Positions 17,630 through 33,200 of a stretch of 64,000 nt of DNA are shown piece after piece. The notes under the pieces are model-generated. The model was not told the DNA's origin. It saw only the letters and a list, made by a program, of their open reading frames with translations, and ran no database searches. The position numbers and the translations under genes were made by a program. The first letter of the stretch is position 1, and every line of letters starts with the position of its first letter. Source of the DNA: Prosthecobacter algae (GTDB lineage Bacteria; Verrucomicrobiota; Verrucomicrobiia; Verrucomicrobiales; Verrucomicrobiaceae); assembly GCF_039542385.1 (NCBI RefSeq), contig NZ_BAABIA010000010.1:1-64000 (forward strand), written 5' to 3'.

Positions 17630-19684
17630 TCAACAAACGGGTTCCTTTTGGAAAGCCAGCCTGGTTTCAGGCTGGCTTTTTTGCGCCGCCGCCACGGCTG
17701 CCAATTGGCGGGCTACAAAGGCAGATTTGGAAGCCCGGTTGAAAGGAATCGTCATCATCGCGAACCAAGGCCCTACGATGCGTGCCAAAGGCCCTTGAAG
17801 GATAAGGTGCCGCAGCAGGGCATCTCTCACCCAGGAAAGCGCGTGACCACGCCAGGTGCCAAGCCCCATGCCCATGGCAGCCCGTTTGGCCGCTGTGTTG
17901 GAGGCCTGACGGCGGCAGCGATCATACTCCGCCAACCAAGTGGCGGCTGGCTGGTCATGCCGAAGAATGGCATGCAACATCAGCGCGGCAAACTCCGCAT
18001 CGGCAAAGCCTGTGTTCATGCCCTGACCGCCGATGGGGCTCATGACGTGGGCAGCATCTCCACAAAGGATGAAACGGCCATCGTAGAGCTGCTCGCAGTC
18101 CAGCCGCCAGGGCGAGAAGCTGCTTTGATTCAACTGATCTTCCGGCGCAATGACCTGACCGGAACGCAAGCGCACGATTTCGCTGATGAAACCCGCCGGG
18201 GGGGCTGCCTCAGGCTGGCGGGTCTGCACGATCCAGCGCCGCAGGCCGCCCGGCAGGGGGAAACTTTCCACCGCACCCTGAGCGGTGAAATAGAGGTGCG
18301 CCTCCTCACCCAGGGAGGTGCGATCGACAAAATCTCCCATGATAAAATGATGCCCATAGTCATGCCGCGTGGTGCGCAGGCGCAGGAGATCACGCACGCG
18401 GCTGCGGTGCCCATCACAACCCACCGCATAGGCTGCGCGCAAGGTCGTGAGGCCGCCCGCTTCCTCCTTCACGGTCACAGAGACTTCGTGGTCCGTTTGA
18501 TCCAGCCCCACCACCTCAACCCCACGCTGGAGGGTGACCGATGGATAGGTGGCCAGTTTCTCCGCCAAAAGAGCCATGCTGATCTGCTGCGGCAAAGACA
18601 GCACGAAAGGGTAAGGACCGGGGATCTCCCGGAACGAAGCGATGCCTGTGGGACCACTCTGGCCATGGACATGGCAGTCGCGGATGGGCAGCCCATGCTG
18701 AATGAAGGCCTGATCCAGCCCCAGCTCTGCCAGGATGGCGAGCGTGGGCGGGGTGATGCCGATGGCCTGTGAATGCGTGGGCAGGGCGGTGCGGCGCTCC
18801 AGCACCCGCACCCGCACACCACGCGCCCCCAGCAGGCAGCCCAAGGCCATGCCGATGGGCCCACCGCCGATGAGGATGACCTCGGCATCGTAAGCCTGTG
18901 AAGGGGGCTGAGAGGGAGAACTCATGCGGTGACGCTGGCGGCCAGGGAACCAATACGGCACCCGGGCCTGATAGCGAGCATACGCCTGCCCATAAAAACG
19001 CAGGTAACGTTTCTCCTTCCAAAGGGGTGCCCCGACGCAGTACCCGGTCCAGGCCAGAGCAATGATGAGGTGGTCTGGCGTCCACACAGGTGCCGTCCAC
19101 AGGATGAGGGTGAAGGCGGAATAAATGGGCTGGCGGCTGTAGCGAAACAGGCCTGTGCGGGTGAAGGGCCGATACACGGGTGCCTGCCCGCGCCAGACGG
19201 AGCGCCAGCCGATGCTGCCGATCTGCACGTCCAGCCCTGCATCGCTCATGGACTTGGCCAGCAACACCCAGGATAGACCATAAAGGACACTCAAAGTCCC
19301 TTTGAGCCAGCCTTCGGGCGCAGCCCAGAGCACTTCCGAAGAAGACCAGAACAGGAAAGTCACCAGCAACTGCAAGGAGGCCAACCCTGCAAAGATGGTG
19401 GTGGAAAGCTCCCGCCCCAGGCCCAGTGGGGCTAGGCGTGCCATCCAGCGGCGACCTTTATCCGATAACAGCAGAGAGTGCCCTAGACCAAACTGGAGCA
19501 CCAAGAGCACATCATCCAGCGCAGCCGCCCAGCCATGCAGATGCAGCAGGCTGAAATGCAGCCCCTGATACAGGCTGACGAACATGACCCCGACAGAGGC
19601 CAGGAACAATGAATGACTGATGAGCCCATAAAGCAGCGCCACCCGGCGCTGCGCTGGGGTGTAAGAGACAGGTGCTGTGGCCAT
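17630..19684 (-). CDS. fused ICMT-like methyltransferase and FAD-dependent monooxygenase
   Basis: 684 aa from the ATG at 19684, five bases after the type III PKS stop; longer starts would overlap the PKS gene. Residues 1-250 are a polytopic membrane domain of the isoprenylcysteine carboxyl methyltransferase/NnrU type, ending with the typical LFRYSRQPIYSAF and KEKRYLRFYG...YQARVPYW motifs. From M254 a PHBH/UbiH-like flavin monooxygenase begins: VILIGGGPIGMALGCLLGARG (Rossmann), CDGHRSRVR (DG motif) and CGDAAHVMSPIGGQGMNTG (FAD/GD motif). No stop or frame break separates the two. In Streptomyces alkylresorcinol clusters these are separate proteins (SrsB, SrsC) that methylate and hydroxylate the type III PKS product. 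A genuine fusion is the direct reading; an indel in the sequence is the alternative. Confidence 0.88.
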   Translation of the reverse strand: MATAPVSYTPAQRRVALLYGLISHSLFLASVGVMFVSLYQGLHFSLLHLHGWAAALDDVLLVLQFGLGHSLLLSDKGRRWMARLAPLGLGRELSTTIFAGLASLQLLVTFLFWSSSEVLWAAPEGWLKGTLSVLYGLSWVLLAKSMSDAGLDVQIGSIGWRSVWRGQAPVYRPFTRTGLFRYSRQPIYSAFTLILWTAPVWTPDHLIIALAWTGYCVGAPLWKEKRYLRFYGQAYARYQARVPYWFPGRQRHRMSSPSQPPSQAYDAEVILIGGGPIGMALGCLLGARGVRVRVLERRTALPTHSQAIGITPPTLAILAELGLDQAFIQHGLPIRDCHVHGQSGPTGIASFREIPGPYPFVLSLPQQISMALLAEKLATYPSVTLQRGVEVVGLDQTDHEVSVTVKEEAGGLTTLRAAYAVGCDGHRSRVRDLLRLRTTRHDYGHHFIMGDFVDRTSLGEEAHLYFTAQGAVESFPLPGGLRRWIVQTRQPEAAPPAGFISEIVRLRSGQVIAPEDQLNQSSFSPWRLDCEQLYDGRFILCGDAAHVMSPIGGQGMNTGFADAEFAALMLHAILRHDQPAATWLAEYDRCRRQASNTAAKRAAMGMGLGTWRGHALSWVRDALLRHLILQGPLARIVGPWFAMMTIPFNRASKSAFVARQLAAVAAAQKSQPETRLAFQKEPVC
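17652..17682 (+). terminator. rho-independent terminator after aguA, inside the converging gene
   Basis: A perfect 12-bp stem, AAAGCCAGCCTG / CAGGCTGGCTTT, with loop GTTT and a following T run. It starts 29 bases after the aguA stop and falls within the last codons of the minus-strand flavoprotein gene, which ends at 17630. Confidence 0.92.
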
Positions 19685-19689
19685 GGGAG

Positions 19690-20838
19690 CTAGGCTTGCA
19701 TGCTTTCCGCCGTCGGCCGGCTGACGGCGGCCCGGCAGCCAATGCGCTCCAGCAGAGCCGTCTCCACCGTGAGCCCTGGCCCAAAAGCCATCGCACACAA
19801 AGTAGCATGATCGGTTTCCGCTGAGTCGAGCATCTCCTTCAGCACAAACAGGATGGTGGCGCTGCTCATGTTTCCATAGTCCCGCAGGATGGTGCGTGAG
19901 GCCTCCAGGGCATCGGGCCGCAGGGCCAGGCTTTCCTGCACTTTGTCAAGGATGGAGCGCCCGCCCGGATGCACGGCCCATTCGTCCATGGAATCCACCT
20001 TGCAGCCCTGGCGGCCCAGGATGCCATTGAGCAACTGGCGGATGTTTCCCCCAATGATGTCGGGCACGTAGCTGGAGAGGACGATGTTAAATCCCTCGTT
20101 GCCGATTTCCCAGGCCATCTCGGACTCACTGGAGGGAACGAGGGCCGACTCAAAACCCCGAAGCAGATAAGCAGGCTTTTTATCTATCGGTAGCCGTGCG
20201 CTAACGACCGCTGCTGCCGCACCATCCGCGAACAAAGAGTTCGCCAAAATGCTGTCGTGATGATCATTGATCTGCATGTGCAGGGTGCAGAGTTCCAGGC
20301 AGATGACGAGCACCACGGCCTGTGGATCTGCCTCGCAAAACTGCGCGGCCATGCGCATGGCAGGGAAGGCCGCGTAGCAGCCCATGAAACCCAGGGTATA
20401 GCGCTGCACGTTTTCACGCAGGCCTAGTTCCCGGATGACGTGGTAGTCCGGCCCCGGATTCGCAAAGCCCGTGCAGGAGGTGTAGATGATGTGGGTGACG
20501 TCCTGCTTCTCAAACCCGGGTGTATCCGCCAAGGCCCGGCGGGCCACATCCACGGAGAGTTCCCGCGCACAGTGCGTGTAAACACGGTTACGCTCCGCCG
20601 TGCCTGGCGGAATGAGGCGCCCTTCCGCATCACTGCGATACAGGCTGGCCTCCGCTCCCATAACGAAATCTCCCGTCACGCTGTGACGTGTCTCAATGCC
20701 GCTGCGGTTGTAGATGGCGTGGATGAGACGCTTGGTTTTCGGATCTACGGCCCAGTCCTTGAGGCGGTCGCGAGTGTAGGCCTGGCTGTAGGTGTAAGCC
20801 GGATTGCCGGTGGCGATGTGATGAATGTAAGCAGGCAT
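19690..20838 (-). CDS. type III polyketide synthase (chalcone synthase-like)
   Basis: 382 aa thiolase-fold homodimer-type enzyme. The Cys-His-Asn triad is visible at C154 (LGFMGCYAAFPAMR), H290 (EWAVHPGGRSILDKV) and N323 (DYGNMSSATILFVL), with family-typical IYTSCTGFANPGPDYH around residues 118-133. It would extend an acyl-CoA starter with malonyl-CoA to an alkylpyrone or alkylresorcinol; chain length cannot be read by eye. It is the middle gene of a tight unit: YceI-like gene 5 bases upstream, methyltransferase-monooxygenase fusion 5 bases downstream. This arrangement suggests synthesis and tailoring of a phenolic or quinone membrane lipid. Confidence 0.95.
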   Translation of the reverse strand: MPAYIHHIATGNPAYTYSQAYTRDRLKDWAVDPKTKRLIHAIYNRSGIETRHSVTGDFVMGAEASLYRSDAEGRLIPPGTAERNRVYTHCARELSVDVARRALADTPGFEKQDVTHIIYTSCTGFANPGPDYHVIRELGLRENVQRYTLGFMGCYAAFPAMRMAAQFCEADPQAVVLVICLELCTLHMQINDHHDSILANSLFADGAAAAVVSARLPIDKKPAYLLRGFESALVPSSESEMAWEIGNEGFNIVLSSYVPDIIGGNIRQLLNGILGRQGCKVDSMDEWAVHPGGRSILDKVQESLALRPDALEASRTILRDYGNMSSATILFVLKEMLDSAETDHATLCAMAFGPGLTVETALLERIGCRAAVSRPTAESMQA

Positions 20839-20843
20839 GGAAA

Positions 20844-21413
20844 TCAGGGCTGGGTGAGGGTGACGCTGGCATGTACCTTCACGGCATCGCCCACGCGGAT
20901 GAATAGCAGAACCGACGGCACCTCGATGCCGCTGGCCTTGAGAGATACGTCGAAGTCCAGGTCAAAGGTGGCTTTCTTGCCCACAAGCTTCCATTGGCTG
21001 ATGCGACCCTGGACGCTCTGCTCTTTGCCCAGAAGCTTCAGCTTCATCGGTAAAGTCGCCGGTGTCTTACCATCCTGAGAGACTTCACTCACAGCGGCAT
21101 CAATCTCGGCTATGATCCACGGATGCTCCGTGACCTTCATGGCCTTGCGCATGTTTTCATCGCGCTTCGGCTCGGCTGTGTCCATGGCCTTCGCCGCGAC
21201 GGTGACCTTGGCCGAAATCTGCGTGGGAGCACCTGCAGCATCTGAAGCCACGAGGGTGGTAAAAGGCTGGGCAGCCACTTGACCTGCCCAGTCATGAAGA
21301 GTGGAAGTACCGGAAAAGGTGATGGCGGCAGAGCCTGACCAATTTGCACGGCTTTGCGCGAATGCTGGATACGCCAGACAAAAAGTGAAGAACAAACAAC
21401 AATGTAAAAGCAT
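20844..21413 (-). CDS. YceI-family lipid-binding periplasmic protein
   Basis: 189 aa with Sec signal (MLLHCCLFFTFCLAYPAFA). The lipocalin-like YceI fold is supported by FSGTSTLHDWAGQVAAQP near the N-terminus and EHPWIIAEIDA in the middle. YceI proteins bind polyisoprenoid chains or similar amphiphiles in the periplasm. It is the first gene of the cluster with the type III PKS, so it may carry or shuttle the polyketide-derived lipid; this is inference from context. The short upstream gap (21414-21494) contains the probable promoter. Confidence 0.85.
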   Translation of the reverse strand: MLLHCCLFFTFCLAYPAFAQSRANWSGSAAITFSGTSTLHDWAGQVAAQPFTTLVASDAAGAPTQISAKVTVAAKAMDTAEPKRDENMRKAMKVTEHPWIIAEIDAAVSEVSQDGKTPATLPMKLKLLGKEQSVQGRISQWKLVGKKATFDLDFDVSLKASGIEVPSVLLFIRVGDAVKVHASVTLTQP

Positions 21414-21949: not shown

Positions 21950-24907
21950 TTAAGGCACTTCTTGCAGCAGACTGAATGCTCCAGAGAGAATCGGGGTGGT
22001 GGTCGCTTTTTGATTAGCCTGGGGGATCTGAGGCAGCAGGAAGTAACCCACCGCTTTCACAGAACCATCCGCCAGACGCACCACCTGTCCCACGAACGGA
22101 ACTTTTGCCCGCGTAAGGAGTGGGCTGGTCTCGACCAAGGTGAAGCTGCCACTGACCTTGCCTGTGCCCGGGGTGATCGTGAGCGCCACCTTGCCCGGAT
22201 TTTCGGTGATGATCGGCAGCACGACTTTGTTCGCCGCCGTGAAGGTGAACTGAAGCCTCGGATCCGTCGCGGAGAAGGCCAAGCCACCCCCGGTTAAATC
22301 CAAAGTCACATTTCCCACCGCAGGCAGGCCCAAAATGGCTTTGGTCTTGCTGGTTACAGCCAAGTAGGCACCTGCTGCCGTGAGTGGCACATCCCCAAAA
22401 GAGGCAGGATAAGTGCGAGACACCGTGGTCGGTTTAAACCAACTCAAGGCACCGCGGATGACATTGTCCTCAGAGCCCGCATCCTGGAGGTCCAGCAGCA
22501 GTTCGCCCTGGAGGCTACCTAACTTTTTATAAAGCGGTGTGTAAACTCCGAACTGCCCCTGCGAGCTGAGAAAGCTACTACCCATGATGGTCTCTCCATC
22601 TGCTGTTTTCCCCAGCAGTATCAGAGTGCCTGCGGGGGTGACACTGAAGGTGGCAAACCCTGTGCCATGAGGGATGGTGGGTGAGCTCCGATCCGTCGCT
22701 TCCTGAAGGTCCAAGGCCAGACTGTAATAGCCCACAAAAGGGGTCGCGGGCTGGTCTCTCACATGCCAGGCATTGCGCCAGCCATTCACCATCGCAGCGC
22801 CGAGCTGGCCAGTCACTTCACCTGTGCCAGCTTGGAGATTCAGGGTGAGTGTCTGCCCACCTAGAACCACCGAGACATGGGGCGCGGAGGCATTCAAGAA
22901 ACCCTTCGCTGAGTAGGCCATTCCTGCTGCCGCAGCACCACTGGTGGGGAGCGCCCCGGTGAGCTTTAGCGTGTAAGCTCCAAGTGAGGTGGTGGTGAGG
23001 GAGAAGGTGCCTCCAAGACCTTTGTTGGTCGCCGCTTCACGCTTGATCAAACCCGTGAAGTTCCCGACCTGATGCGTGTCCAAAGCATTCACCACCCAGG
23101 GTGCCACCACCACCGCACTCACCCCACCCGCATTGCTAGCACGCACTTGCACATCATAGCGCCCCGGCACGGTGGCACGGCCTTTGATGACTCCCGTGCT
23201 AGCCACAAAGGTGAGACCTTTGGGCAGCCCTGTGATGGCAAAAGTTTTGGGGTAGTTTGAAGCTGTCACGGTCTGATTGACCAAGGCACCCAGGGTGGTG
23301 GGAGAAAACACCACCGGATCCACGATCGGTGCCAGATAAGTGGCAGAAACGGGCAGCGTCAGCGCTTTCACAAGAACGACCGGACTGCCATCCGTCAAAC
23401 GCACCGTGAAGGTGGCGCTGCCTGACGCCGTGGGTGTACCAGAGAGCACGCCTGCTGAGCTGAGCGTGATGCCTGCAGGCGGTGCGCCCGAGGCGATCTC
23501 CCAGGTGTAGGGTCCGGTGCCGCCGGTATGCAGCAAGCTGTGAGAAAAAGCCACCCCTTTAACTGCCGTGGGCAATGAAGCCGTGCGAATGACGAGATCC
23601 GTCAAGGTCAGTGTGAACACTTTGGTAGCGACACGGGCCGCCGCGTCTTCTACCTCCACGGTAAAGCTGCTGCTGCTGGAAGATTGCGGCGTGCCAGATA
23701 GCAGCCCCTGTTCACTCAAGGTCAGGCCTGCGGGCAAGACGCCTTCACTGACGCGCCAGGTGTAGGGGCCTGTGCCACCGATGACGCTCATAGAGGTGCT
23801 GTAGAGACTGCCCACGAAACCTGTGGCCAAAGGTGAAGCCGTCAAAATCGTGGGCTCCGCCGGAGCCGTAACGGATACCGTGGCTGTGCTGGAATCCACT
23901 CCAGCAGGCAAGGCGGTGTTACTGATCCTGACCCAGTAGCTGGTGGTGGCAAGCAAGCTCGGCGTGGTGAAGGAGGCGGCATTGGTGCCGACGGGTGTGG
24001 TGATGACTCCGCTCACTCCTTGATACCACTGATAAGTCAGGGGGCCATCCCCGGAGGCTACGACGGAAAGGGTCGTGCTTTGCCCGCTGTTGATCTGTGT
24101 TGAAACGGGTTGCTCCACGATGGCCGCTGGCTGCAGCACGGTGACAGTGGCGGTGTTTGACTGGACTCCCGCGGGGTTCGCCGCATTGCTCACTCTGACC
24201 CAGTAACTCTTCGTCGCGGTGAGATTCGGGGTGGTGAAACTCGCCGCATTCGTGCCTACCGGCTGGGTGGTGACTCCACTGGCCCCTTCATACCATTGAT
24301 AGGTGAGCGGCGCCCCACCGGTTGCCGTAACGGTCAGGGTGGCAGTGCTGCCGCTGCTGATGGAAGTCGAGGCCGGGTGCGTGCCAATGGCAGCGCCTGC
24401 ACCGGCCGAGACTTGCAGGGTAAAGCTGGCCTGCGCAGATCGCCCGCTGAAGTTGGAGTTTTCCCACCCTCGAATGGTGATCACGTGGTTGCCTGTCTGC
24501 GTCGTGGTCCCGGTCAGCGTGGTCGTTTTACTTCGTGAATTGGCCAATGTCAGACCATTCGGCAGTGTACCGCTGGAAACGGACCACGACTGAGGAGTAT
24601 GCCCGCCACCACCCACGACCTGAAACACACCCGCGAGATTGGTCCCTGCCGTCACCGGCACCGTGGCAGAGCCTGCCGCTGGGGCCACTTGGCTGACAGA
24701 GGTGGCCCCTGCCACACTGTCAAAGGCCCCCAGCCCGACAACGGTGGTAATGACAAACTTCGTCGTATCCACAAACGCCGCCGAAGTGAGCAGCTTGGCC
24801 TCTGGAAAAAGCATCTGCACAATGGGCGAACGCTGAAACAGCAGCAGCAGCGAGCTGTACCTGGAAAAGGGTTTCTTGAACTTCTCGATCACGGAAAAGA
24901 GATTCAT
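21950..24907 (-). CDS. Ig-repeat surface protein with long N-terminal leader
   Basis: 985 aa. The first 60 residues are an unusual leader (basic/aromatic, then FVITTVVGLGAFDSVAGATS). About residues 160-350 hold two near-identical Ig-like modules (PLTYQWYEGASGV and PLTYQWYQGVSGV, each followed by TNAASFTTP). About 355-600 are putative-Ig (He_PIG type) modules with GLTLS..GLLSGTP repeats. The C-terminal 370 residues contain a repeated beta-rich domain without a name. D63-x-x-A-G-A-T69 resembles the ApbE flavinylation consensus D-x-x-(S/T)-G-A-(S/T), with Ala instead of Ser/Thr; it could equally be a signal-peptidase site. It is the last large gene of the ApbE/TlpA/DUF4266/DUF3570 operon. Confidence 0.8.
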   Translation of the reverse strand: MNLFSVIEKFKKPFSRYSSLLLLFQRSPIVQMLFPEAKLLTSAAFVDTTKFVITTVVGLGAFDSVAGATSVSQVAPAAGSATVPVTAGTNLAGVFQVVGGGGHTPQSWSVSSGTLPNGLTLANSRSKTTTLTGTTTQTGNHVITIRGWENSNFSGRSAQASFTLQVSAGAGAAIGTHPASTSISSGSTATLTVTATGGAPLTYQWYEGASGVTTQPVGTNAASFTTPNLTATKSYWVRVSNAANPAGVQSNTATVTVLQPAAIVEQPVSTQINSGQSTTLSVVASGDGPLTYQWYQGVSGVITTPVGTNAASFTTPSLLATTSYWVRISNTALPAGVDSSTATVSVTAPAEPTILTASPLATGFVGSLYSTSMSVIGGTGPYTWRVSEGVLPAGLTLSEQGLLSGTPQSSSSSSFTVEVEDAAARVATKVFTLTLTDLVIRTASLPTAVKGVAFSHSLLHTGGTGPYTWEIASGAPPAGITLSSAGVLSGTPTASGSATFTVRLTDGSPVVLVKALTLPVSATYLAPIVDPVVFSPTTLGALVNQTVTASNYPKTFAITGLPKGLTFVASTGVIKGRATVPGRYDVQVRASNAGGVSAVVVAPWVVNALDTHQVGNFTGLIKREAATNKGLGGTFSLTTTSLGAYTLKLTGALPTSGAAAAGMAYSAKGFLNASAPHVSVVLGGQTLTLNLQAGTGEVTGQLGAAMVNGWRNAWHVRDQPATPFVGYYSLALDLQEATDRSSPTIPHGTGFATFSVTPAGTLILLGKTADGETIMGSSFLSSQGQFGVYTPLYKKLGSLQGELLLDLQDAGSEDNVIRGALSWFKPTTVSRTYPASFGDVPLTAAGAYLAVTSKTKAILGLPAVGNVTLDLTGGGLAFSATDPRLQFTFTAANKVVLPIITENPGKVALTITPGTGKVSGSFTLVETSPLLTRAKVPFVGQVVRLADGSVKAVGYFLLPQIPQANQKATTTPILSGAFSLLQEVP

Positions 24908-24945
24908 AAGACTAGGATGTTTGAAGGGAAAAAGATCTGTCAGGG

Positions 24946-25173
24946 TTAATTGCAGCCGCAGCCGCCACCGCCCACCCCACCGCCGCCAAAACTGGCCTCG
25001 CGAGAAAAGTAGGCATGATTGGTCATCGCTAGAAACAGCGTGTCGCGCTCTGGACTCATCAAAGGATTGGCGAGATTCCCCCGCTCAAACGGCCTCACGC
25101 GCACCAGGTGGCTGGAGCAACTGCTCAATGTGGCGGCCACAGTGACCGCTAGGAAAAGTAAGCTAGGTTTCAT
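24946..25173 (-). CDS. DUF4266 small lipoprotein with Gly/Cys tail
   Basis: 75 aa. Lipobox LSSC after a short hydrophobic signal predicts an acylated Cys near residue 18. The mature peptide has the family core LVRVRPFERGNLANPLM and ends in GGGGVGGGGCGCN, the invariant-looking glycine/cysteine tail of DUF4266 proteins. Families of this kind occur beside ApbE, DUF3570 and thioredoxin genes, as here (22 bases from the TlpA stop, 38 bases before the Ig protein). The function is unknown; the two tail cysteines could bind metal, be oxidised by the TlpA partner, or be modified. Confidence 0.88.
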   Translation of the reverse strand: MKPSLLFLAVTVAATLSSCSSHLVRVRPFERGNLANPLMSPERDTLFLAMTNHAYFSREASFGGGGVGGGGCGCN

Positions 25174-25194
25174 TCTGGATCAGGAAGGTGAGGT

Positions 25195-25683
25195 TTATTG
25201 AGCGAGCAGTTCCTCGATCTCTTTCACGTATTCGGCTTCCGTCTTTGCGCCCTTGAAGCCCTTATGGATGTGGCGGATTTTCCCATCTCGCCCGACGAGG
25301 TAGCTGGTGGGCATGGTGGGCGGATTAAAAAAAGCGGCCGCCTTCTGCTGAGTATCATGGACCAGGGTGAAACCCACGGGGTTCTTCGCCGCAAAGGCCT
25401 GGTACTTTTCCGCCTCTTCATCGACACCGATGCCGATGATGACGAGACCTTTCTTGGCATAGGTATCATGGAGGCGAGACATCGTGGAAAACGAGGCTTT
25501 GCATGGCGCGCACCAGGAGGCCCAGAAATCCACCAAGACGACTTTTCCTGCTGTCTTGGGCAGGGCTGCGCTGGGCAATAAACCTTTGAGATCCGGCAGG
25601 GCCGAGCCTGTGGCGGGTTCGCCTGCAAAGCTCATGGTTAGGCCGAGGCAGAGTGTGGTAATGAGGGTAACGATGTATTTCAT
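25195..25683 (-). CDS. TlpA-like exported thioredoxin-fold protein
   Basis: 162 aa. Sec signal (MKYIVTLITTLCLGLTMSFA) then a TlpA/ResA-like thioredoxin domain: VLVDFWASWCAPCKASF around residues 48-64 with the CxxC redox pair, and the cis-proline segment PTMPTSYLV around 122-130. It would reduce disulfides or keep cysteines reduced in the periplasm. Located between apbE and the DUF4266 gene with gaps of 20-30 bases, so its likely clients are operon partners, especially the Cys-tailed DUF4266 lipoprotein. Confidence 0.93.
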   Translation of the reverse strand: MKYIVTLITTLCLGLTMSFAGEPATGSALPDLKGLLPSAALPKTAGKVVLVDFWASWCAPCKASFSTMSRLHDTYAKKGLVIIGIGVDEEAEKYQAFAAKNPVGFTLVHDTQQKAAAFFNPPTMPTSYLVGRDGKIRHIHKGFKGAKTEAEYVKEIEELLAQ

Positions 25684-25710
25684 AGGGTGACTAAGGTTGG
25701 GTGTTTTGAG

Positions 25711-26688
25711 TTAAGCGGACTGAACTTGATACTGACGAAAATGACGGGTGGCGGTGACTCCCTGCTCCCCCTGAAGGCAGGCCTCCACACCGGGGGCGTT
25801 TTCAGCGAACTGGAGGCCCTCCTTTTGCCCCAGCACAAAGACACAGGTGGAGTAAATGCCGGCGATGAGTGAAGTGGGTGCCACCACCGTCACGGCACGC
25901 AGTCCATGACGGACAGGCCACCCCGTGCGGCGGTCTAAGATATGGCCATAACGCACGCCTTCGTGCTCAAAGCGCCGGGCATAGTCACCCGAGGCACACA
26001 CGGCATATCCTGAGACGGCGAGACCGCCAATGCAGCGGTCCGTCTGCACGCCATCCTGAATGCCCACATGCCAGAACGGATGCTGCCCATTCCCGCCCAG
26101 AGCCAGGATGTCGCGCCCCAGATCCACCAGGATATCCACGATCCCATGACGGCGAGCGATGGCGATGACTTGATCCACCGCGTGCTCTTTGCCAAAACCT
26201 CCGAAGTCCAGGCCCATGCCAGCTCTGGGGAGGTAGATCTTGCCAGGCTTGCGCTCCACTTCTTTCCAGTTGGACAATGCCAGGGCCTGCTGCACTTCAG
26301 CCTCCAGTGGCAGCCGCTCATGCACTTTTTTCCAATCCCAGAGCTGGATCAGCGGCAGCATGGCGGGATCGAGCAAACCTTCGGTTAGGCGGTGCATGGC
26401 CTCACCCATGTCGAGCATTTGCTCCATCTCGGCATCGATTTCGACCCACCGCTGCCCGGCTCCCTGGTTGATGCGCGAAAGCAGCGAATCTGGGCGAAAG
26501 CGAGAAAACTTGGCTTCAAATTCGCCTAACCAACCCAGCGCTTCCGCTAGGAACTTCAAGGCCGCTTTCTGGTCCTCGCAGCGGAACTGGATGACGCAGG
26601 CGGTGCCCATCGCCTTGAAGGCAAGGCTGCGCACGCCTCGGCTATCTGGAGGGATGACGGCAGGTGTCACGGGTGCGGGTTTCGACAT
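25711..26688 (-). CDS. apbE: ApbE-family FAD:protein FMN transferase, divergent
   Basis: 325 aa. ApbE moves FMN from FAD to a Thr/Ser of a target protein. Family motifs: KAMGTACVIQF near residue 25, LDFGGFGKEHAVDQV around 160-174, and GHILDRRTGWPV around 249-260. Two oddities: no Sec/Tat signal or lipobox is visible, so it may act in the cytosol, and the usual metal-binding A-D-x-x-(S/T)-T motif reads IAGIYST, with Gly in place of Asp. It lies 8 bases from the DUF3570 gene and 27 from the TlpA gene. Candidate substrates are operon partners carrying D-x-x-x-G-A-(S/T) motifs. Confidence 0.88.
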   Translation of the reverse strand: MSKPAPVTPAVIPPDSRGVRSLAFKAMGTACVIQFRCEDQKAALKFLAEALGWLGEFEAKFSRFRPDSLLSRINQGAGQRWVEIDAEMEQMLDMGEAMHRLTEGLLDPAMLPLIQLWDWKKVHERLPLEAEVQQALALSNWKEVERKPGKIYLPRAGMGLDFGGFGKEHAVDQVIAIARRHGIVDILVDLGRDILALGGNGQHPFWHVGIQDGVQTDRCIGGLAVSGYAVCASGDYARRFEHEGVRYGHILDRRTGWPVRHGLRAVTVVAPTSLIAGIYSTCVFVLGQKEGLQFAENAPGVEACLQGEQGVTATRHFRQYQVQSA

Positions 26689-26695
26689 GATCGTT

Positions 26696-27853
26696 TTAAA
26701 ATTGGATGCTCACACCAAAGGTCCAGATATTGGCCGTGGGATAGGCCGCTGTAGGGGCTTGGTTAGCGCCCCAGCCACTCATGTCGTAATGCTCATAGGC
26801 TGCGGAAAGGGCGATGTTTTCCGTCAGCCGATAGCGTGTCTTGATGCCCAGGCTCAGTGTGTTCATCGAGGAGAGACGGTAGTCTGCCGAATAGTGCGGT
26901 CCCTTTCCCGCAGGGTATTCTTCAGGGTTGGCGTTGGGTACCTCATCCAGGGTGTTCTGGAAAAAATCCGCTGCGTTCTGGCGATAATATCGACAGAAGG
27001 GCGTCACCTCCAGCTTGTCCCACAGTCCTTGCCGCCACTCCACCTGAAGGCTCTGCGAGAATACCCCGTAGTCATCCTGAGAAAGGCGCAGCGTGGCATC
27101 CAGTGCCGCCTGCACTTTGTCGAAGTAATGCGTGCCCTGCATTTGCAAAACACCCCGCAGTCGGCTGTCTGGCCGGTTTTCACGGTACAAATTCACCGTG
27201 GGAATGTCGATCGTCCCACCGGCGCCGTCAGGCAGTGAAACGATGTCCGTCCGCTGGATGGCTTTATACGGGTCGTTCAGATAACCTTCGCTGTACCCCA
27301 CGGTGAGATTGGCGGCCAAGATGGTGTTTTTATCCAGCAACTGGGTGATGCCCATGAAAAGGTCGTAGCTTCGTTTGGTCTGATCTTCGAGGCCAAAGAC
27401 CTTCACCGAATCGTCCAAATAATTGAAGCCAAAAGCCAAGGTGGTATTTTTCTGATTCAGCTCCCAGCGGTCGCTCAAAGACAATCCATGCGAAAGATAG
27501 TCACTCTCTTTGCTGCGAGAAAACTCAAGCTCCACGCGGTGATCGCCGATCTGCTGAGACAACGCACCGAGGATGCCATTGCGCACATCTTCCAGGTCTG
27601 CCAAGAAAGGCTGCACCCCCCCAGGAAGGGCACCTGTGGGTGAGGCTCCACTGATGGCATCCGAGAGAAACTGGTAACGAAAGCTGGTCTGCTCCGTGAA
27701 GTGCATCTCTCCGCGAAAATACCAGGACTCAACACTGATGCGTCCGTTGGACTCATCGTAAATTTGGTAACTGGTATCGAACTTTAGGCGCTCAGCCGCC
27801 TCCACTGCCAAGGAAGGCAAAAGCAAGGGCGCCAAAGCGAGTGGTTTTCTCAT
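26696..27853 (-). CDS. DUF3570 outer-membrane beta-barrel protein with flavinylation-like motif
   Basis: 385 aa from the ATG at 27853, which starts a signal peptide (MRKPLALAPLLLPSLAVEA); an upstream ATG at 27916 would bury it. The mature protein alternates aromatic/polar residues in about sixteen strands and ends in phenylalanine (FGVSIQF), typical of outer-membrane barrels. Near the start of the mature part it has SDAISGASPTG; D65-A-I-S-G-A-S71 matches the ApbE consensus D-x-x-(S/T)-G-A-(S/T) exactly. This makes it a strong candidate for covalent FMN attachment by the ApbE encoded 8 bases downstream. DUF3570 function is not established. Confidence 0.87.
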   Translation of the reverse strand: MRKPLALAPLLLPSLAVEAAERLKFDTSYQIYDESNGRISVESWYFRGEMHFTEQTSFRYQFLSDAISGASPTGALPGGVQPFLADLEDVRNGILGALSQQIGDHRVELEFSRSKESDYLSHGLSLSDRWELNQKNTTLAFGFNYLDDSVKVFGLEDQTKRSYDLFMGITQLLDKNTILAANLTVGYSEGYLNDPYKAIQRTDIVSLPDGAGGTIDIPTVNLYRENRPDSRLRGVLQMQGTHYFDKVQAALDATLRLSQDDYGVFSQSLQVEWRQGLWDKLEVTPFCRYYRQNAADFFQNTLDEVPNANPEEYPAGKGPHYSADYRLSSMNTLSLGIKTRYRLTENIALSAAYEHYDMSGWGANQAPTAAYPTANIWTFGVSIQF

Positions 27854-27943
27854 GCCAGGCCTCCGGAAAAAGACCTTCCAAGAGGAATCTGGCGATGCAG
27901 AAGGGGGAGTACACATGGTTAGAATAAATAAGGTGTATCTGAC

Positions 27944-30900
27944 TCACGGCGCATGGACCAGAGATAACGCGAGCACCTCAGCAGGCTGTGTGGAATGACG
28001 GGCTGCGAGCTCGTCCTTCATTCCCCAGCGGTAAAGGATCGGCAGCAGAAATAAGGTGAGGAAAGTGCTACTGACGATGCCGCCGATCACCACCGTCGCG
28101 AGGGGCCTCTGCACCTCGGCACCCGCTCCCTCACTCAAGGCCATCGGGATAAATCCCAGGCTAGCCACCAGGGCCGTCATGAGCACGGGACGCAGTCTTT
28201 GCAGGCTGCCTTCCGTCACGGCAACTTCTGCGCTGCGGCCTTCATTGCGCAATTGATTGAAGCAACTGATCAACACGACGCCATTCAATACCGCCACACC
28301 ACACAATGCGATGAACCCGATAGCCGCACTGATGCTGAAGGGTAAGTCCCGCAACCATAAAGCCAAGACACCGCCCGTGATCGCAAGAGGGATACCCGTG
28401 TAGATGATAAGCGTCTGCATCACGCTTTTAAAAGTGGCGTGAATGAGCACAAAGATCAGCACCAGAGCCAGGGGAACCACAATGGCCAGCCGTGCACGGG
28501 CCTCCTGCAAATGCTCAAACTGCCCCCCGAAATCAATCCGGTAACCCTCTGGTATCTGCATCGTTTCGGCGATTTTTTGACGGGCTAAGGTGACATAGGC
28601 CTCCGAGTCGGTGCCGCCTGCCAAGTCCACATTCAGACCCACCCGGCGGTGGCCATCTTCACGCCCGATGGCATCCACTTGAGGCACCTCCACAAAGCTG
28701 GCCAAGCGCCCCAGCGTGATCAAGCCACCGTCCTGCGTGCGCACAGGCAGGGCCTTCATCACTTCTGGGTTATTGCGCAGGGATTCTGGGAGTCGAACCA
28801 CGATGCTACGACGGCGATTATTCTCCATGAGCATGCCTGCGGTATGCCCCGCCATGGCGGTGGTGATGGCCGCATTCACTTCCGCTGCCTCAACATTGAA
28901 TTTCAGCATCGCGGCACGGTCCACCTGGATCTCCAGCACGGGCACCCTCCCTTGTGTCTCAAACTCCGCATTGTTCGTGCCGGGCAATCCCTCAAGCAGC
29001 GCCTTCACCTGCCCGCCGATCTTTTCCATCATGTCGTAGTCGTCGCCAAAAATGCGCACCGCCAGATCCGCTCGGGAACCTTCCAGCATCTCATTGAAAC
29101 GCATTTGGATAGGCTGGGCAAAATCATAATCTTGTTCAGGCACCTCCTTGGCCAGTTCCTCACGAATGAGCTCCGCCAAACGGTCTCGGCTCACTGGCTG
29201 CCCATTTTCCTGCCGCCATTCAGACTGCGATTTGTAAAAGACGTAGAGATCATATTCTCCGGGGGACATCGGGTCCGTGGCCACTTCGCTGGTGCCCACG
29301 CGGGCGAAGGTGCGGGTGACTTCAGGCACCTTGTTGATGAGGTATTGCTGTGTTTTGATGCAACGCTCCAGGGAAGTTTTCAGGCTGGTATTTGCAGGCT
29401 GGTAAACCATGGCCGTCCAAGATCCTTCATTGAGGGTAGGGACGAACTCCTGCTTTAAGCTCATGAATAACAGGCCCGTGGTCCCCAAGAGCACCAAAAC
29501 GGCAGCCACCACTCCCCAGCGCGTTTTCCAGGCCAGCCCCAGCAGCGGTGCGTAGGCGGCCTTGGCTCCGCGCATGAGGAAGTTATCCTTCTCTGAGATA
29601 TTGCCTCTGAGCAGCAGGGAGCAAAGCGCAGGCATGAGCGTCAAGGACAATACTAAAGCGCCCCCCAGAGCCAGCATCACTGTGATGGCCATGGGGTGAA
29701 ACATTTTCCCCTCGATTCCGGTCAATGCCAGAATAGGCAAGTAAACCAGAGTGATGATGAGCACGCCAAAAAACATGGGGCTCCCCACCTGCTGCCCTGC
29801 CTCCCTCACAGCAGCCAGGCGCTCCTTCGCCGTCAATTTCCGGCCCAAGGCGTGTTGCTTTTCTCCCAGCACGCGCACGATGTTTTCCACCATCACGACG
29901 GCCCCATCAATGATGAGACCGAAATCCACTGCTCCTAATGACATCAGGTTTCCGGAGACTCCTCCAAAGGTCATGCCGATGAGCGCGAATAGAAACGACA
30001 GTGGAATAGCAAGCGCGACGATGAGTGCCGCGCGCCAGTTGCCTAACAAAAGAAGCAACACACCGATGACGAGAATGGCCCCTTCAAACAGGTTGTGCTT
30101 CACTGTGTCAATCGTGCGGTCCACCACTTCACTGCGTGCGTACTGAATGCGCAGCTCCAGACCTGGAGGAAGTTTCTTTTGCAATTCGGCCAGTTTCTCC
30201 TCCACCCGTTTGCTGATGATGCGGCTGTTTTCCCCCACCAGCATCATCACCGTCCCCAGCACAGCTTCCTCCCCATTTTCGACCGCACAGCCCGTGCGCA
30301 CATTGCTGCCAATACTCACCTCTGCGAGATCCTTCACTCGTATGGGCTCCACCCCCGCCGCGAACTTGACGGGTAGGTTGGCAATGTCCTCAGCACTGGC
30401 CACCTTCGTCACACCGCGAATGAGCATGCGGTCTGTGCCACGCTCAATCACGCCCCCGCCGGCATTGTCCACATTCTGGCCGATGATGGCTGCCAACTCA
30501 CTGAAGGTTAAACCCGCTTGTGCCAGCGATTCAGGCTTGGGCAAGACCACCAACTGCCTTTCATAACCGCCACTGCTGTTGATCTCCGCCACACCCGGCA
30601 CGGTGCGGAGGAAAGGCTTCACAATGTAATCATGGGCCTCACGTAGATCCATGAGCTGGCGTTCCCGGGATTGCTTCCGACCCGGGGCATCCTTTTGATA
30701 ATCCAGCGTGTAGTAGAGGATCTCGCCTAAACCCGTGCTGATGGGCGACATCTGCGGACTGAGTCCCGGTGGTAATTCGACCTGCACCAAACGCTCACTG
30801 ACGAGCTGCCGCGCCCGAAAGATGTCTGTGCCATCTCGAAAGACCAGGGTGACCTGTGAAAGGCCTGACTTCGTGAGCGAGCGAAACTCTTCCACTCCTT

Positions 30901-31129
30901 GGATACCAGCGAGAGCCAACTCCAAAGGATAAGTGACGAGTTTCTCCGTCTCCTCCGGTGCCAGCCCCGGCACAGCCGTATTCACCTGGACCTGAGTGTT
31001 GGTGATGTCTGGTACGGCATCTACGGGCAGATGCAGCGCGGAAAAGATTCCCGCAGCCAAGAGCAGCAAGGCCCCCATGATGACGAGAAAGCGATTTTTG
31101 AGTGAGAATTCGAGAATGGAAGTGATCAT
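27944..31129 (-). CDS. CzcA-type heavy-metal RND efflux pump
   Basis: 1061 aa, full length for the HME-RND family. Twelve membrane segments with large periplasmic loops after TM1 and TM7. TM4 carries DFGLIIDGAVVMVEN, the DFGx3DGAx3VEN signature of the HME1/CzcA group that exports Co, Zn and Cd, rather than the CusA pattern. It begins MITSILEFSLKNRFLV, as usual for the family. The channel gene is upstream in the same operon, but no periplasmic adaptor (CzcB/CusB) is encoded; the expected position is a 145-base gap with a 30-codon frame. The DUF3570 gene follows after 90 bases from its chosen start. Confidence 0.95.
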   Translation of the reverse strand: MITSILEFSLKNRFLVIMGALLLLAAGIFSALHLPVDAVPDITNTQVQVNTAVPGLAPEETEKLVTYPLELALAGIQGVEEFRSLTKSGLSQVTLVFRDGTDIFRARQLVSERLVQVELPPGLSPQMSPISTGLGEILYYTLDYQKDAPGRKQSRERQLMDLREAHDYIVKPFLRTVPGVAEINSSGGYERQLVVLPKPESLAQAGLTFSELAAIIGQNVDNAGGGVIERGTDRMLIRGVTKVASAEDIANLPVKFAAGVEPIRVKDLAEVSIGSNVRTGCAVENGEEAVLGTVMMLVGENSRIISKRVEEKLAELQKKLPPGLELRIQYARSEVVDRTIDTVKHNLFEGAILVIGVLLLLLGNWRAALIVALAIPLSFLFALIGMTFGGVSGNLMSLGAVDFGLIIDGAVVMVENIVRVLGEKQHALGRKLTAKERLAAVREAGQQVGSPMFFGVLIITLVYLPILALTGIEGKMFHPMAITVMLALGGALVLSLTLMPALCSLLLRGNISEKDNFLMRGAKAAYAPLLGLAWKTRWGVVAAVLVLLGTTGLLFMSLKQEFVPTLNEGSWTAMVYQPANTSLKTSLERCIKTQQYLINKVPEVTRTFARVGTSEVATDPMSPGEYDLYVFYKSQSEWRQENGQPVSRDRLAELIREELAKEVPEQDYDFAQPIQMRFNEMLEGSRADLAVRIFGDDYDMMEKIGGQVKALLEGLPGTNNAEFETQGRVPVLEIQVDRAAMLKFNVEAAEVNAAITTAMAGHTAGMLMENNRRRSIVVRLPESLRNNPEVMKALPVRTQDGGLITLGRLASFVEVPQVDAIGREDGHRRVGLNVDLAGGTDSEAYVTLARQKIAETMQIPEGYRIDFGGQFEHLQEARARLAIVVPLALVLIFVLIHATFKSVMQTLIIYTGIPLAITGGVLALWLRDLPFSISAAIGFIALCGVAVLNGVVLISCFNQLRNEGRSAEVAVTEGSLQRLRPVLMTALVASLGFIPMALSEGAGAEVQRPLATVVIGGIVSSTFLTLFLLPILYRWGMKDELAARHSTQPAEVLALSLVHAP

Positions 31130-31161
31130 AACTCCAGGGAAGGAAAGGACGTTCAGGGAAC

Positions 31162-31254
31162 TCAGTTAAACTGGGAGGAACCGGGGAAGGGGCTTTGGAG
31201 AGTGCGCTTCAGCGTGGCTTGTGTTTCATGCCCGAAATCATCCAAATTTTGCAT
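31162..31254 (-). CDS. possible 30-residue small ORF between channel and pump genes
   Basis: ATG at 31254 and stop at 31162-31164; product begins MQNLDDFGHETQATLKRT and is hydrophilic. It fills most of the gap between the CzcC-like gene and the CzcA-like gene, where an adaptor gene would normally lie. It shows no similarity I can recognise to an adaptor terminus. It may be a small regulatory peptide, a relic, or chance. Confidence 0.25.
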   Translation of the reverse strand: MQNLDDFGHETQATLKRTLQSPFPGSSQFN

Positions 31255-31274
31255 GATCTTTTGTTAGGTAAAAA

Positions 31275-32546
31275 TCAGCCTTCTTTGGCCACACGTAGAG
31301 GCTCCATTTTCTGTCCCAAGGGTGCCCCGGTCAGCCGCTCCACCTCCATGCGGTGTTTCCAGGCATTGCGTCGCCCTTCGATCAAAGCGTCCATGGCATC
31401 CAGGTAGCCTCGCTGCATCTCGACATAAGTCGCAGCCGGCACGGCTCCCAGACGAAAGTGTCGGTCTGCCTCGATTGCAGCCTCTTGGAACTGTTTTTCA
31501 CTCTCTGGACGCCAATGGTCCAGGGCTGCTAACTCCGCCAGATAGGCCGAGCGTGCGATGGCGAGGTCTCTTTCCAGATCCCTGAGCGTGGCCAGCAAGA
31601 GTGCCTCCGCCTGGAGCGTGCGCGCCTGTTCGGTCGCTACATTTCCTTTGTTCTTATTCCAGAGAGGCAGGGGAATGGAAAAAGCAAACCCACCTTCCAC
31701 CTGGGTTCCCCCCGCATGCTGGCCCGCCATGTAAGGACCAAAGCTGATGTTCCCCCAGCGCTCGGACTTGGTCAGGTCCACCTTCAGCCCCTGCTTCGCC
31801 ACTTGCAGGCGCTTTTGTTGAAGGTCGAAATTACTCCCGGCCGCTTGCTCCTTCAGTTTCTCAAGCGCTGGCACCTGGGGGAAAAGAGTGGACGGATCTA
31901 CGAGGGCCAGAGCCGCCTCGGGTGGGCGACCACACAGGACATTGAGCGCCGTGCTGGACTCCTGCGCTTGCTTGGACGCATCGGTCAGCGTGCGATCGCT
32001 CGTCAACAAGGCGGCCTCCAGGATCCGCCTTTCCAGCAGAGCACTCACAGAGCCCGCATCCCGCTGCACGAGAACTTCGATCAAGGCCTCCAGCCTCTCT
32101 CTCACAGACCGTGCCGCCTGCTCTTTGCGCTGAAGCAGCACCACATCACCACTCAAAGCCCGCACTTGGTTCACCAACTGGGATTTGAACTGCTGTAGAC
32201 CTAGCTCAGCCAGGGTGATGTCCCGCTCGGCAATGGCTTTGCGCAACGCCATGCGACCTGGAAAATCAAACACTTGAGCGATCTGTGCGCGCCAAACCAG
32301 CCCTTCCTTTTGACTAGCGAGGCTCATCCCTCCTAGCTCCATGGAAAGCTCTGGATTGACCCGCTGCGCCGCAGACTGACGCCCTCCGCGGGCTGCTGCG
32401 ATCTCCGCTTCGTAGAAGCGAACTTCGGGGTTTTTTTGCAGGGCCTCAGCGGCGAGGTCGTTTGACGTCAAAAGAGAAGTGCGAGCATGAACGGTGGATG
32501 CCGTGGCCAGCAGCCACAGGCCCATGTGCAGAAACAAATTTTTCAT
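31275..32546 (-). CDS. CzcC-like outer-membrane efflux channel (TolC family)
   Basis: 423 aa from the ATG at 32546, chosen because it starts a signal peptide (MKNLFLHMGLWLLATASTVHA); the frame is open 45 codons further but without family-like sequence. The mature part has the alternating helix/strand pattern of outer-membrane factors: NPEVRFYEAEIAAARGGRQSA and RVNPELSMELGG near the start, VDLTKSERWGNISFGPYM in the middle, and a C-terminal repeat with RLGAVPAATYVEMQRGYLDA. It would pair with the CzcA-type pump encoded downstream. Operon with the small exported protein upstream (gap about 170 bases). Confidence 0.9.
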   Translation of the reverse strand: MKNLFLHMGLWLLATASTVHARTSLLTSNDLAAEALQKNPEVRFYEAEIAAARGGRQSAAQRVNPELSMELGGMSLASQKEGLVWRAQIAQVFDFPGRMALRKAIAERDITLAELGLQQFKSQLVNQVRALSGDVVLLQRKEQAARSVRERLEALIEVLVQRDAGSVSALLERRILEAALLTSDRTLTDASKQAQESSTALNVLCGRPPEAALALVDPSTLFPQVPALEKLKEQAAGSNFDLQQKRLQVAKQGLKVDLTKSERWGNISFGPYMAGQHAGGTQVEGGFAFSIPLPLWNKNKGNVATEQARTLQAEALLLATLRDLERDLAIARSAYLAELAALDHWRPESEKQFQEAAIEADRHFRLGAVPAATYVEMQRGYLDAMDALIEGRRNAWKHRMEVERLTGAPLGQKMEPLRVAKEG

Positions 32547-32717
32547 GAGGAACGCGGGCAGAAAGTGAAACCGGGCAGCGGCCGGACAGGCTGCGGGCAT
32601 GGAGTTCCCATGCAGTGGCCCCGAAATTCGGCCACGGTGATACCGGCGAGAGAGATGCCTAACAGGACGTATGTAAAACATCAGGCCATGAGGCCTGTGC
32701 GGACGTCATGCATTTCC

Positions 32718-33200
32718 TCAAATCAGTAGCTGCACCGTGGCCAGCAGCGGCTGACTCACAGGCATGAATTTCTCGGTTGAGAAAGTGATAGGAAGCGGAT
32801 CGTGCCGCTCCGAAGAAGGAATCCAAATGACCAGGGAGGCTGTGGCTGTGTAATTCAGTGCAGGCGCACTTTTAACGGACAGTTCTGACAGGTCGCGGGC
32901 CGAAGTGATGCTGCCTTTGACATGAGCGGAGACTAGGCTGTGATCCCCGAACTGATCTGAAGCACTCATGCTGACAAGCACACGAGCCAAATTTTCCGAA
33001 TGATCTTCGAGATTGGGTGTGTAATGCCCAGCATCGTGTCGCAAGACGAGCTGGGTGCCATTTTCAGACTCCTGCACCTGCACGCGATGGCTTCCATCCA
33101 GATTCGCCATCATCACCATCACCGCGGGCATGATCGCCGTCCCCGTGATGGCGTAGGCCATCAGCAAGAAGCTGGCGAGAATGCGATGGGACAGTTTCAT
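32718..33200 (-). CDS. exported protein heading the metal-pump operon, unknown
   Basis: 160 aa with an N-terminal hydrophobic segment (ASFLLMAYAITGTAIMPAVMVMM) that is either a signal or an anchor. The remainder is hydrophilic with several His residues (ENGTQLVLRHDAGHY, SENLARVL), which could interact with metal, but no family is recognised. It is the first gene of the minus-strand run, immediately behind a 16-base palindrome (33205-33220) only 4 bases from the start codon. Confidence 0.65.
   Translation of the reverse strand: MKLSHRILASFLLMAYAITGTAIMPAVMVMMANLDGSHRVQVQESENGTQLVLRHDAGHYTPNLEDHSENLARVLVSMSASDQFGDHSLVSAHVKGSITSARDLSELSVKSAPALNYTATASLVIWIPSSERHDPLPITFSTEKFMPVSQPLLATVQLLI

Follow-up and report, generated by a model that had tools for sequence, protein, structure and literature searches.

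What do five closely spaced genes in a contig of Prosthecobacter algae do together, and in which compartment would the flavin that they appear to handle be attached? The window, i.e. the whole stretch of DNA that was analysed, comprises 64,000 nucleotides and is part of contig C10 in a genome of 6.12 Mb, the nearest relatives of which are Prosthecobacter and other Verrucomicrobiaceae. Its minus strand encodes, in series, a DUF3570 protein, an ApbE flavin transferase, a ResA/TlpA-type thioredoxin, a DUF4266 protein and a large Ig/He_PIG protein. A first-pass annotation of the window had recognised five consecutive minus-strand genes with short gaps. Profile matches confirmed the families, the gaps are 7, 27, 21 and 38 bases in order along the cluster, and the coordinates and motifs given there were correct. 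The cluster and the sites discussed below are as follows.

26696-27916, minus strand: DUF3570 outer-membrane beta-barrel (PF12094, 3.7e-71)
27641-27661, minus strand: ApbE acceptor motif DAISGAS in DUF3570
25711-26688, minus strand: ApbE-family FAD:protein FMN transferase (flavin adenine dinucleotide, flavin mononucleotide) of a signal-less clade (PF02424, 5.8e-70, 236 bits against a cut-off of 25.6)
26185-26187, minus strand: Glu codon after the conserved Lys of ApbE (GKE, not AKG), covarying with the Asp-to-Gly replacement
25858-25860, minus strand: Gly codon replacing the conserved Asp of ApbE, in IAGIYST (from alignments)
25195-25683, minus strand: secreted ResA/TlpA/DsbE-type thioredoxin with a WCAPC active site (PF00578, 7e-19; DsbE-like 3gl3, 1.4e-22)
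24946-25173, minus strand: DUF4266 lipoprotein with lipobox LSSC and a Gly-rich tail ending in CGCN (PF14086, 3.2e-19)
21950-24907, minus strand: large Ig/He_PIG surface protein with a conserved extended N-terminus (PF05345, PF19081, PF13927)
24701-24721, minus strand: DSVAGAT at the end of the N-terminal hydrophobic segment of the Ig protein, a possible second flavin acceptor or signal peptidase I site (cut between AGA and T)

Clusters of ApbE, DUF3570, a thioredoxin-like protein and DUF4266, with DsbD or without it (316 cases), were reported by Meheust et al. 2021, who identified DUF3570 as an ApbE substrate and left the function of the clusters uncertain (PMC8238504). The main text of that paper is silent on a barrel, a porin or any Ig partner, and in the literature searched it is the only one to name DUF3570 or DUF4266. 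The window shares with these clusters the four adjacent genes, the C-terminal CXC of DUF4266 and the [S/T]GA[S/T] acceptor. In contrast to them, it has no DsbD in the cluster (a feature of the DsbD-type subset), its ApbE is signal-less and has an Asp-to-Gly replacement that the paper's text does not describe, and it carries a conserved fifth gene, absent from that text, for an Ig protein with an N-terminus of its own. The cluster is a real, conserved variant of the published system. We consider it probable that in this Verrucomicrobiae variant the barrel is flavinylated in the cytoplasm, and that thioredoxin, DUF4266 and flavin form an electron path to the outside.

DUF3570 proteins were gathered from 42 of 388 sampled verrucomicrobiotal genomes and from 21 further contigs. 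Outside Verrucomicrobiota, the comparison covers two loci in proteobacterial metagenome-assembled genomes (L051, L052), one Vibrio locus (L129) and one Hymenobacter plasmid (L130). The same gene order was found in nearly all of the approximately 60 loci; together with the motif conservation described next, this goes beyond chance.

The DUF3570 frame probably starts functionally at an internal ATG at 27853, where the first-pass annotation had let the cluster end, with the signal peptide MRKPLALAPLLLPSLAVEA. Counted from this ATG, DAISGAS spans residues 65-71, and S71 is the predicted flavin-bearing residue. The first-pass annotation had recognised DAISGAS as an exact acceptor consensus, which holds, but had placed it just after the signal peptide; it lies about 45 residues further, at the end of predicted strand 3. 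A check of motif conservation had been proposed beforehand. Without exception, all 58 of the 58 DUF3570 proteins in the alignment, which come from Verrucomicrobiota and the two proteobacterial assemblies, keep the pattern [D/N]-x-[I/V]-[S/A/T/V]-G-[A/S]-[S/T], so that no refutation emerged from this alignment, which leaves out four divergent verrucomicrobiotal proteins (L089-L092). In these four, a first site is degenerate (SSAS) and a second intact (SGAS). The window and most Verrucomicrobiota have one acceptor site, and L051 and L052 have two, 11 residues apart. Two loci without an adjacent apbE (L068, L085) also keep the motif, and an ApbE of the signal-less clade is encoded at another place in their genomes.

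In Chlorobium luteolum, two [S/T]GA[S/T] sites of DUF3570 became flavinylated upon co-expression in Escherichia coli with its own ApbE, and flavinylation was lost only when both serines were mutated, according to gel and mutant evidence (PMC8238504). The single site of the window differs from this pair; membership of the system is kept, as the two sites were a motif finding and not part of its definition. Together, the C. luteolum evidence and the conserved acceptor lend good support to covalent flavinylation of the barrel, the central inference of the first-pass annotation. This inference is right for the family, and it is not new.

Where the flavin would sit follows from a structural model. 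The AlphaFold2 model of DUF3570 (mean predicted local distance difference test score of 87.5) has 18 strands and a C-terminal Phe. Its fold matches in the PDB are outer-membrane protein barrels, e.g. OmpG, FadL, AlgE and PelB, while a sequence search of the PDB gave no match. Even strands are followed by turns of 2-5 residues and odd strands mostly by longer loops; under the usual rule for outer-membrane proteins, strand 3 (residues 56-72) would therefore end on the extracellular side. In the family, positions 57, 59, 61 and 65 are polar and positions 58 and 60 hydrophobic. Residue 71 has the parity of the polar face and would thus point into the lumen. The model accordingly predicts that the acceptor lines the lumen, close to the barrel's extracellular end.

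Two further features of DUF3570 were observed. In nine loci of other verrucomicrobiotal families (L053-L055, L070, L078, L080, L081, L087, L088), the acceptor site is followed by a long insertion rich in Pro and Ala, in which a second, KAGATP-like element often precedes the proline run. At L075 (G121:C1:1015153), DUF3570 is broken by an in-frame TAG and split frames, and ApbE, thioredoxin and DUF4266 are still open.

ApbE enzymes are typically periplasmic (PMC12052999). The DUF3570-linked enzymes start approximately 20-35 residues ahead of the ApbE domain, and no convincing signal peptide was found in any of the approximately 58 linked ApbEs of the main clade, whereas their three secreted partners have one. 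N-terminal hydrophobicity reached medians of 2.1-2.6 in the signal-bearing partners and was mostly below 1.3 in the linked ApbEs; the few higher values (e.g. L043, L055, L068, L076) came from over-extended starts or unconvincing signals. In the tree, the linked ApbEs of Verrucomicrobiota and three proteobacterial loci, including the Vibrio relative L129, form one clade (60 of 60, support 1.0). Within this sample, a signal-bearing, Asp-keeping ApbE accompanies DUF3570 only in L090-L092 and Hymenobacter (L130).

Because the enzyme lacks a convincing signal, flavinylation before export is the simplest reading. The predicted acceptor position leads to the same order of events, since a site near the outer mouth would hardly be reachable by a periplasmic enzyme after folding, and modification before insertion is then simplest. 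We therefore infer that the barrel is flavinylated in the cytoplasm, prior to export. A cytosolic ApbE is known in Klebsiella, where it modifies fumarate reductase (PMC12052999). Both transferases are signal-less, but the Klebsiella substrate stays in the cytoplasm whereas the window substrate is an exported outer-membrane barrel. Alternatively, the locus could be the published system and nothing else, with ApbE exported by an unrecognised route, flavinylation outside the cytoplasm and the Ig gene just a neighbour. We regard this as unlikely. The core genes and the motif do match PMC8238504, ApbEs are usually periplasmic (PMC12052999), and signal-bearing enzymes occur in Hymenobacter and at three divergent verrucomicrobiotal loci. 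This explanation has to contend, however, with the lack of a convincing signal throughout the main clade, unlike in the partners, and with the distribution of the Ig N-terminus described below.

The same clade has an altered metal site. The window ApbE has the PDB relatives 7esa and 4xdt. With canonical periplasmic ApbE, Ftp and FmnB enzymes (7esa, 4xdt, 2o18) it shares the family sequence, the Ser and His regions and the metal-site Thr, but it has neither signal peptide nor lipobox, Gly in place of Asp, and Glu after the conserved Lys. The Asp replaced by Gly is that of ADALAT and corresponds to D280 of E. coli, D285 of Vibrio cholerae and D301 of Listeria FmnB. KE occurs together with AG in 60 of 60 clade members and this combination never in other ApbEs; nearly all other ApbEs of the same genomes keep the Asp, including the three others of the window genome. 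In E. coli ApbE, D280 and T284 bind metal 1 together with a backbone oxygen from the loop at the Lys/Glu position (PMC4767422), and in other ApbEs the same Asp has been named as part of an Asp-Ser-His triad (PMC12052999). As both replacements lie near one metal site, it is plausible, judging from the alignments, that the Glu compensates for the lost Asp.

Loss of this Asp in all 60 enzymes, a metal ligand (PMC4767422) and triad member (PMC12052999), is also what one would expect if the linked ApbE were dead or had another activity, and the barrel of this clade were not flavinylated. We consider this quite improbable: the acceptor motif is kept without exception, the catalytic Ser and His regions are retained, and the Glu gained beside the metal-binding loop could compensate.

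Two other kinds of ApbE were seen in Verrucomicrobiota. An orphan member of the altered clade (AG, GKE) occurs at L240 (G394:C1:4299814); its genome has neither DUF3570 nor the Ig N-terminus. A second signal-less class (L137, L133, L140, L142, L146, L147, L150) keeps the Asp, has SDALST (ADALST in L150), lacks SGDYxR and has no linkage to DUF3570. As to other substrates, the first-pass annotation had found no classical FMN_bind protein encoded. This is true of the window's contig, but the genome has one FMN_bind match on another contig.

How would electrons reach the flavin? The thioredoxin matches AhpC-TSA (PF00578), Redoxin (PF08534) and Thioredoxin_8 (PF13905), and its best PDB relatives are DsbE/ResA-like; its match to PF13899, the thioredoxin family counted in PMC8238504, was under the cut-off (E = 0.027). 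The C-terminal tail of DUF4266 in the window reads ...GGGGCGCN, and a C-terminal CGC[N/Y/F] after a Gly-rich stretch is found in 60 of 60 full-length relatives. In Erv2-type sulfhydryl oxidases, flexible CGC tails act as shuttle disulfides that exchange electrons with an adjacent flavin. The likeness is one of analogy only, and here the tail and the flavin would be on separate, unrelated proteins. DsbD was present, unlinked, in 43 of 44 genomes searched, and the sole DsbD of the window genome lies on another contig. As an adjacent partner, DsbD was dropped, for it is adjacent in no verrucomicrobiotal genome and comes closest at 7-11 kb (G296, G140).

According to the reading that we prefer, the DUF3570 precursor would have FMN transferred from FAD to its Ser71 by cytoplasmic ApbE, either ahead of Sec export or in its course. 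It would cross unfolded and insert as an 18-strand barrel in the outer membrane, where FMN would lie in the lumen close to the cell surface. From an unlinked DsbD-type protein, electrons might then pass to the secreted thioredoxin and on to the DUF4266 lipoprotein, whose flexible CGC tail would serve as a shuttle disulfide and reach the barrel flavin from the periplasmic side. The flavin could finally reduce an acceptor outside the cell, at the surface that would also display the Ig protein. A redox role of the system is plausible; the path and direction of the electrons extend a published guess. In MtrCAB porin-cytochrome conduits, an outer-membrane barrel passes electrons across the outer membrane with multihaem cytochromes. 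The likeness concerns the proposed working only, as the window cluster has no multihaem cytochrome (CxxCH is absent from the five translations) and flavin and thiols are proposed instead.

Several points weigh against this scheme. Flavinylation has been demonstrated for the C. luteolum relative only. The C. luteolum construct was made by a 'similar cloning strategy' to one with a signal-truncated ApbE (PMC8238504), so the ApbE that was tested may belong to the exported class. With the Asp, the enzyme has lost a metal ligand and proposed triad member, and it may be weak or need another metal. Passage of a flavin-bearing chain through Sec is a supposition, the order thioredoxin, DUF4266, flavin is no more than plausible, and genomes that lack the system can have DsbD too.

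Is the fifth gene part of the system? It is usually present after DUF4266 in Verrucomicrobiae, and on these sequence comparisons we count it as a conserved cluster member. The body of the protein is a variable mosaic (Ig, He_PIG, NHL) with differing C-termini, but the initial 70 residues follow a conserved pattern: L-L/F-Q-R-T-P ... K/R ... L-G-A-x-[D/H/N]-[S/T]-x-[A/S/V/T]-G-A-T. Among 200 Opitutaceae genomes, the Ig N-terminus was found in 113 and DUF3570 in 113; 110 have both, 84 neither, and three each have only one, although the significance of this co-occurrence is inflated by shared descent and linkage accounts for part of it. Only 3 of the 87 genomes without DUF3570 thus carry the N-terminus. 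Completeness is 69-88% for the six genomes with only one of the two, and among the three that appear to lack DUF3570, G395 and G546 still carry an altered-clade ApbE or fragments of it. Furthermore, genomes may hold several copies, and approximately 20 unlinked ones were read. DUF3570-negative genomes have 1-65 He_PIG matches each that lack this N-terminus. With unlinked copies included, the co-occurrence (110/3/3/84) argues against the Ig gene being a mere neighbour.

The first-pass annotation had noted DSVAGAT as a weaker match to the acceptor consensus. The motif is present, but what had been described as a weak match is part of a highly conserved, system-linked N-terminus. From its sequence, DSVAGAT may be a second ApbE acceptor or a signal-peptidase site. 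The second alternative, by which signal peptidase I would simply cut an exceptionally long, conserved signal peptide there (between AGA and T) and no flavin would be bound, has about an even chance of being right. As in a Sec signal, there are a basic residue, a hydrophobic stretch and small amino acids at -3 and -1; unlinked paralogs carry the motif as well, and its Asp is freely His or Asn in Opitutaceae. However, GAT hardly varies over 89 distinct N-termini (G in 88, A and T in all 89); the peptidase requires neither the Gly at -2 nor the Thr at +1 that are fixed here, and the N-terminus is missing from DUF3570-negative genomes rich in other Ig proteins. That His or Asn can freely replace the Asp also disfavours a strict ApbE motif. 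In Klebsiella, mutating the corresponding Asp had a minor effect only (PMC12052999). More tentatively, and with less conviction than we give to the peptidase site, proteins with LLQRTP...LGAx[D/H/N]SxAGAT might be a second class of ApbE substrates: the cytoplasmic altered ApbE would flavinylate the Thr of GAT as well as the barrel before export, and the Ig proteins would become flavin-bearing surface partners of the conduit.

The N-terminus could also be an export or docking tag read by the barrel complex, in which case the system would mature or display tagged surface proteins and not transfer electrons. The N-terminus is common to proteins that differ in their downstream domains (Ig, NHL propeller) and C-termini, many of the several copies per genome are unlinked, and it co-occurs strictly with DUF3570. 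Yet DUF3570 systems outside Verrucomicrobiae lack it, which rules out a general purpose of this kind, and thioredoxin, CGC tail and flavin indicate redox chemistry. We therefore hold the tag to be rather unlikely.

A different start of the fifth protein was observed at L056 (11364-16019; G235, a related genus from the family of the window genome). It begins with a cytochrome-c-like segment that has a single CxxCH (NAHCITCH) and not with LLQRTP, its C-terminal region resembles that of the window Ig protein, and its cytochrome Pfam matches were below cut-off only. This start hints that a fifth protein can carry a redox centre.

The neighbourhood of the cluster contains the following genes.

32718-33200, minus strand: small secreted protein of unknown family, upstream of the cluster in 10 loci
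31275-32681, minus strand: outer-membrane efflux protein (PF02321, 1.2e-22)
27944-31129, minus strand: CusA/CzcA heavy-metal efflux permease of the resistance-nodulation-division (RND) type (TIGR00914, score 1183, cut-off 701)
20844-21413, minus strand: YceI-like protein downstream (PF04264, 1.5e-8), in 9 loci, Verrucomicrobiaceae only

The RND permease gene lies 27 bases upstream of the long DUF3570 frame and is probably co-transcribed with the cluster; promoter and terminator scans gave no clear signal. As a part of the system the heavy-metal RND genes were dropped, because they are upstream in just five loci, the window included, which points to a local link. No membrane fusion protein gene was seen between or beside the permease and efflux protein genes (27944-33200, minus strand). 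The small secreted protein (32718-33200), which has no Pfam match, precedes the RND genes and stays upstream of DUF3570 in loci without them too. Downstream, a chalcone/stilbene-synthase-like (type III polyketide synthase) gene and then an FAD-binding monooxygenase gene occupy 17630-20838 of the minus strand. Together with the YceI-like gene (17630-21413), they are kept downstream of the cluster in 7-9 Verrucomicrobiaceae loci.

Beyond what we found in the sources consulted are the altered, signal-less ApbE clade linked to DUF3570, the predicted lumenal acceptor on the extracellular side, and the co-occurring Ig N-terminus. If this ApbE works inside the cell, an FMN-loaded polypeptide must traverse the Sec channel and then fold into the outer membrane. 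A cytoplasmic ApbE would, if true, explain how a flavin that faces the exterior is installed, and would relocate flavinylation for the whole barrel class; it would also mean that ApbE activity is possible in the absence of the conserved metal-site Asp. With the N-terminus that accompanies the system comes a ready list of surface proteins that are candidate partners or substrates of DUF3570.

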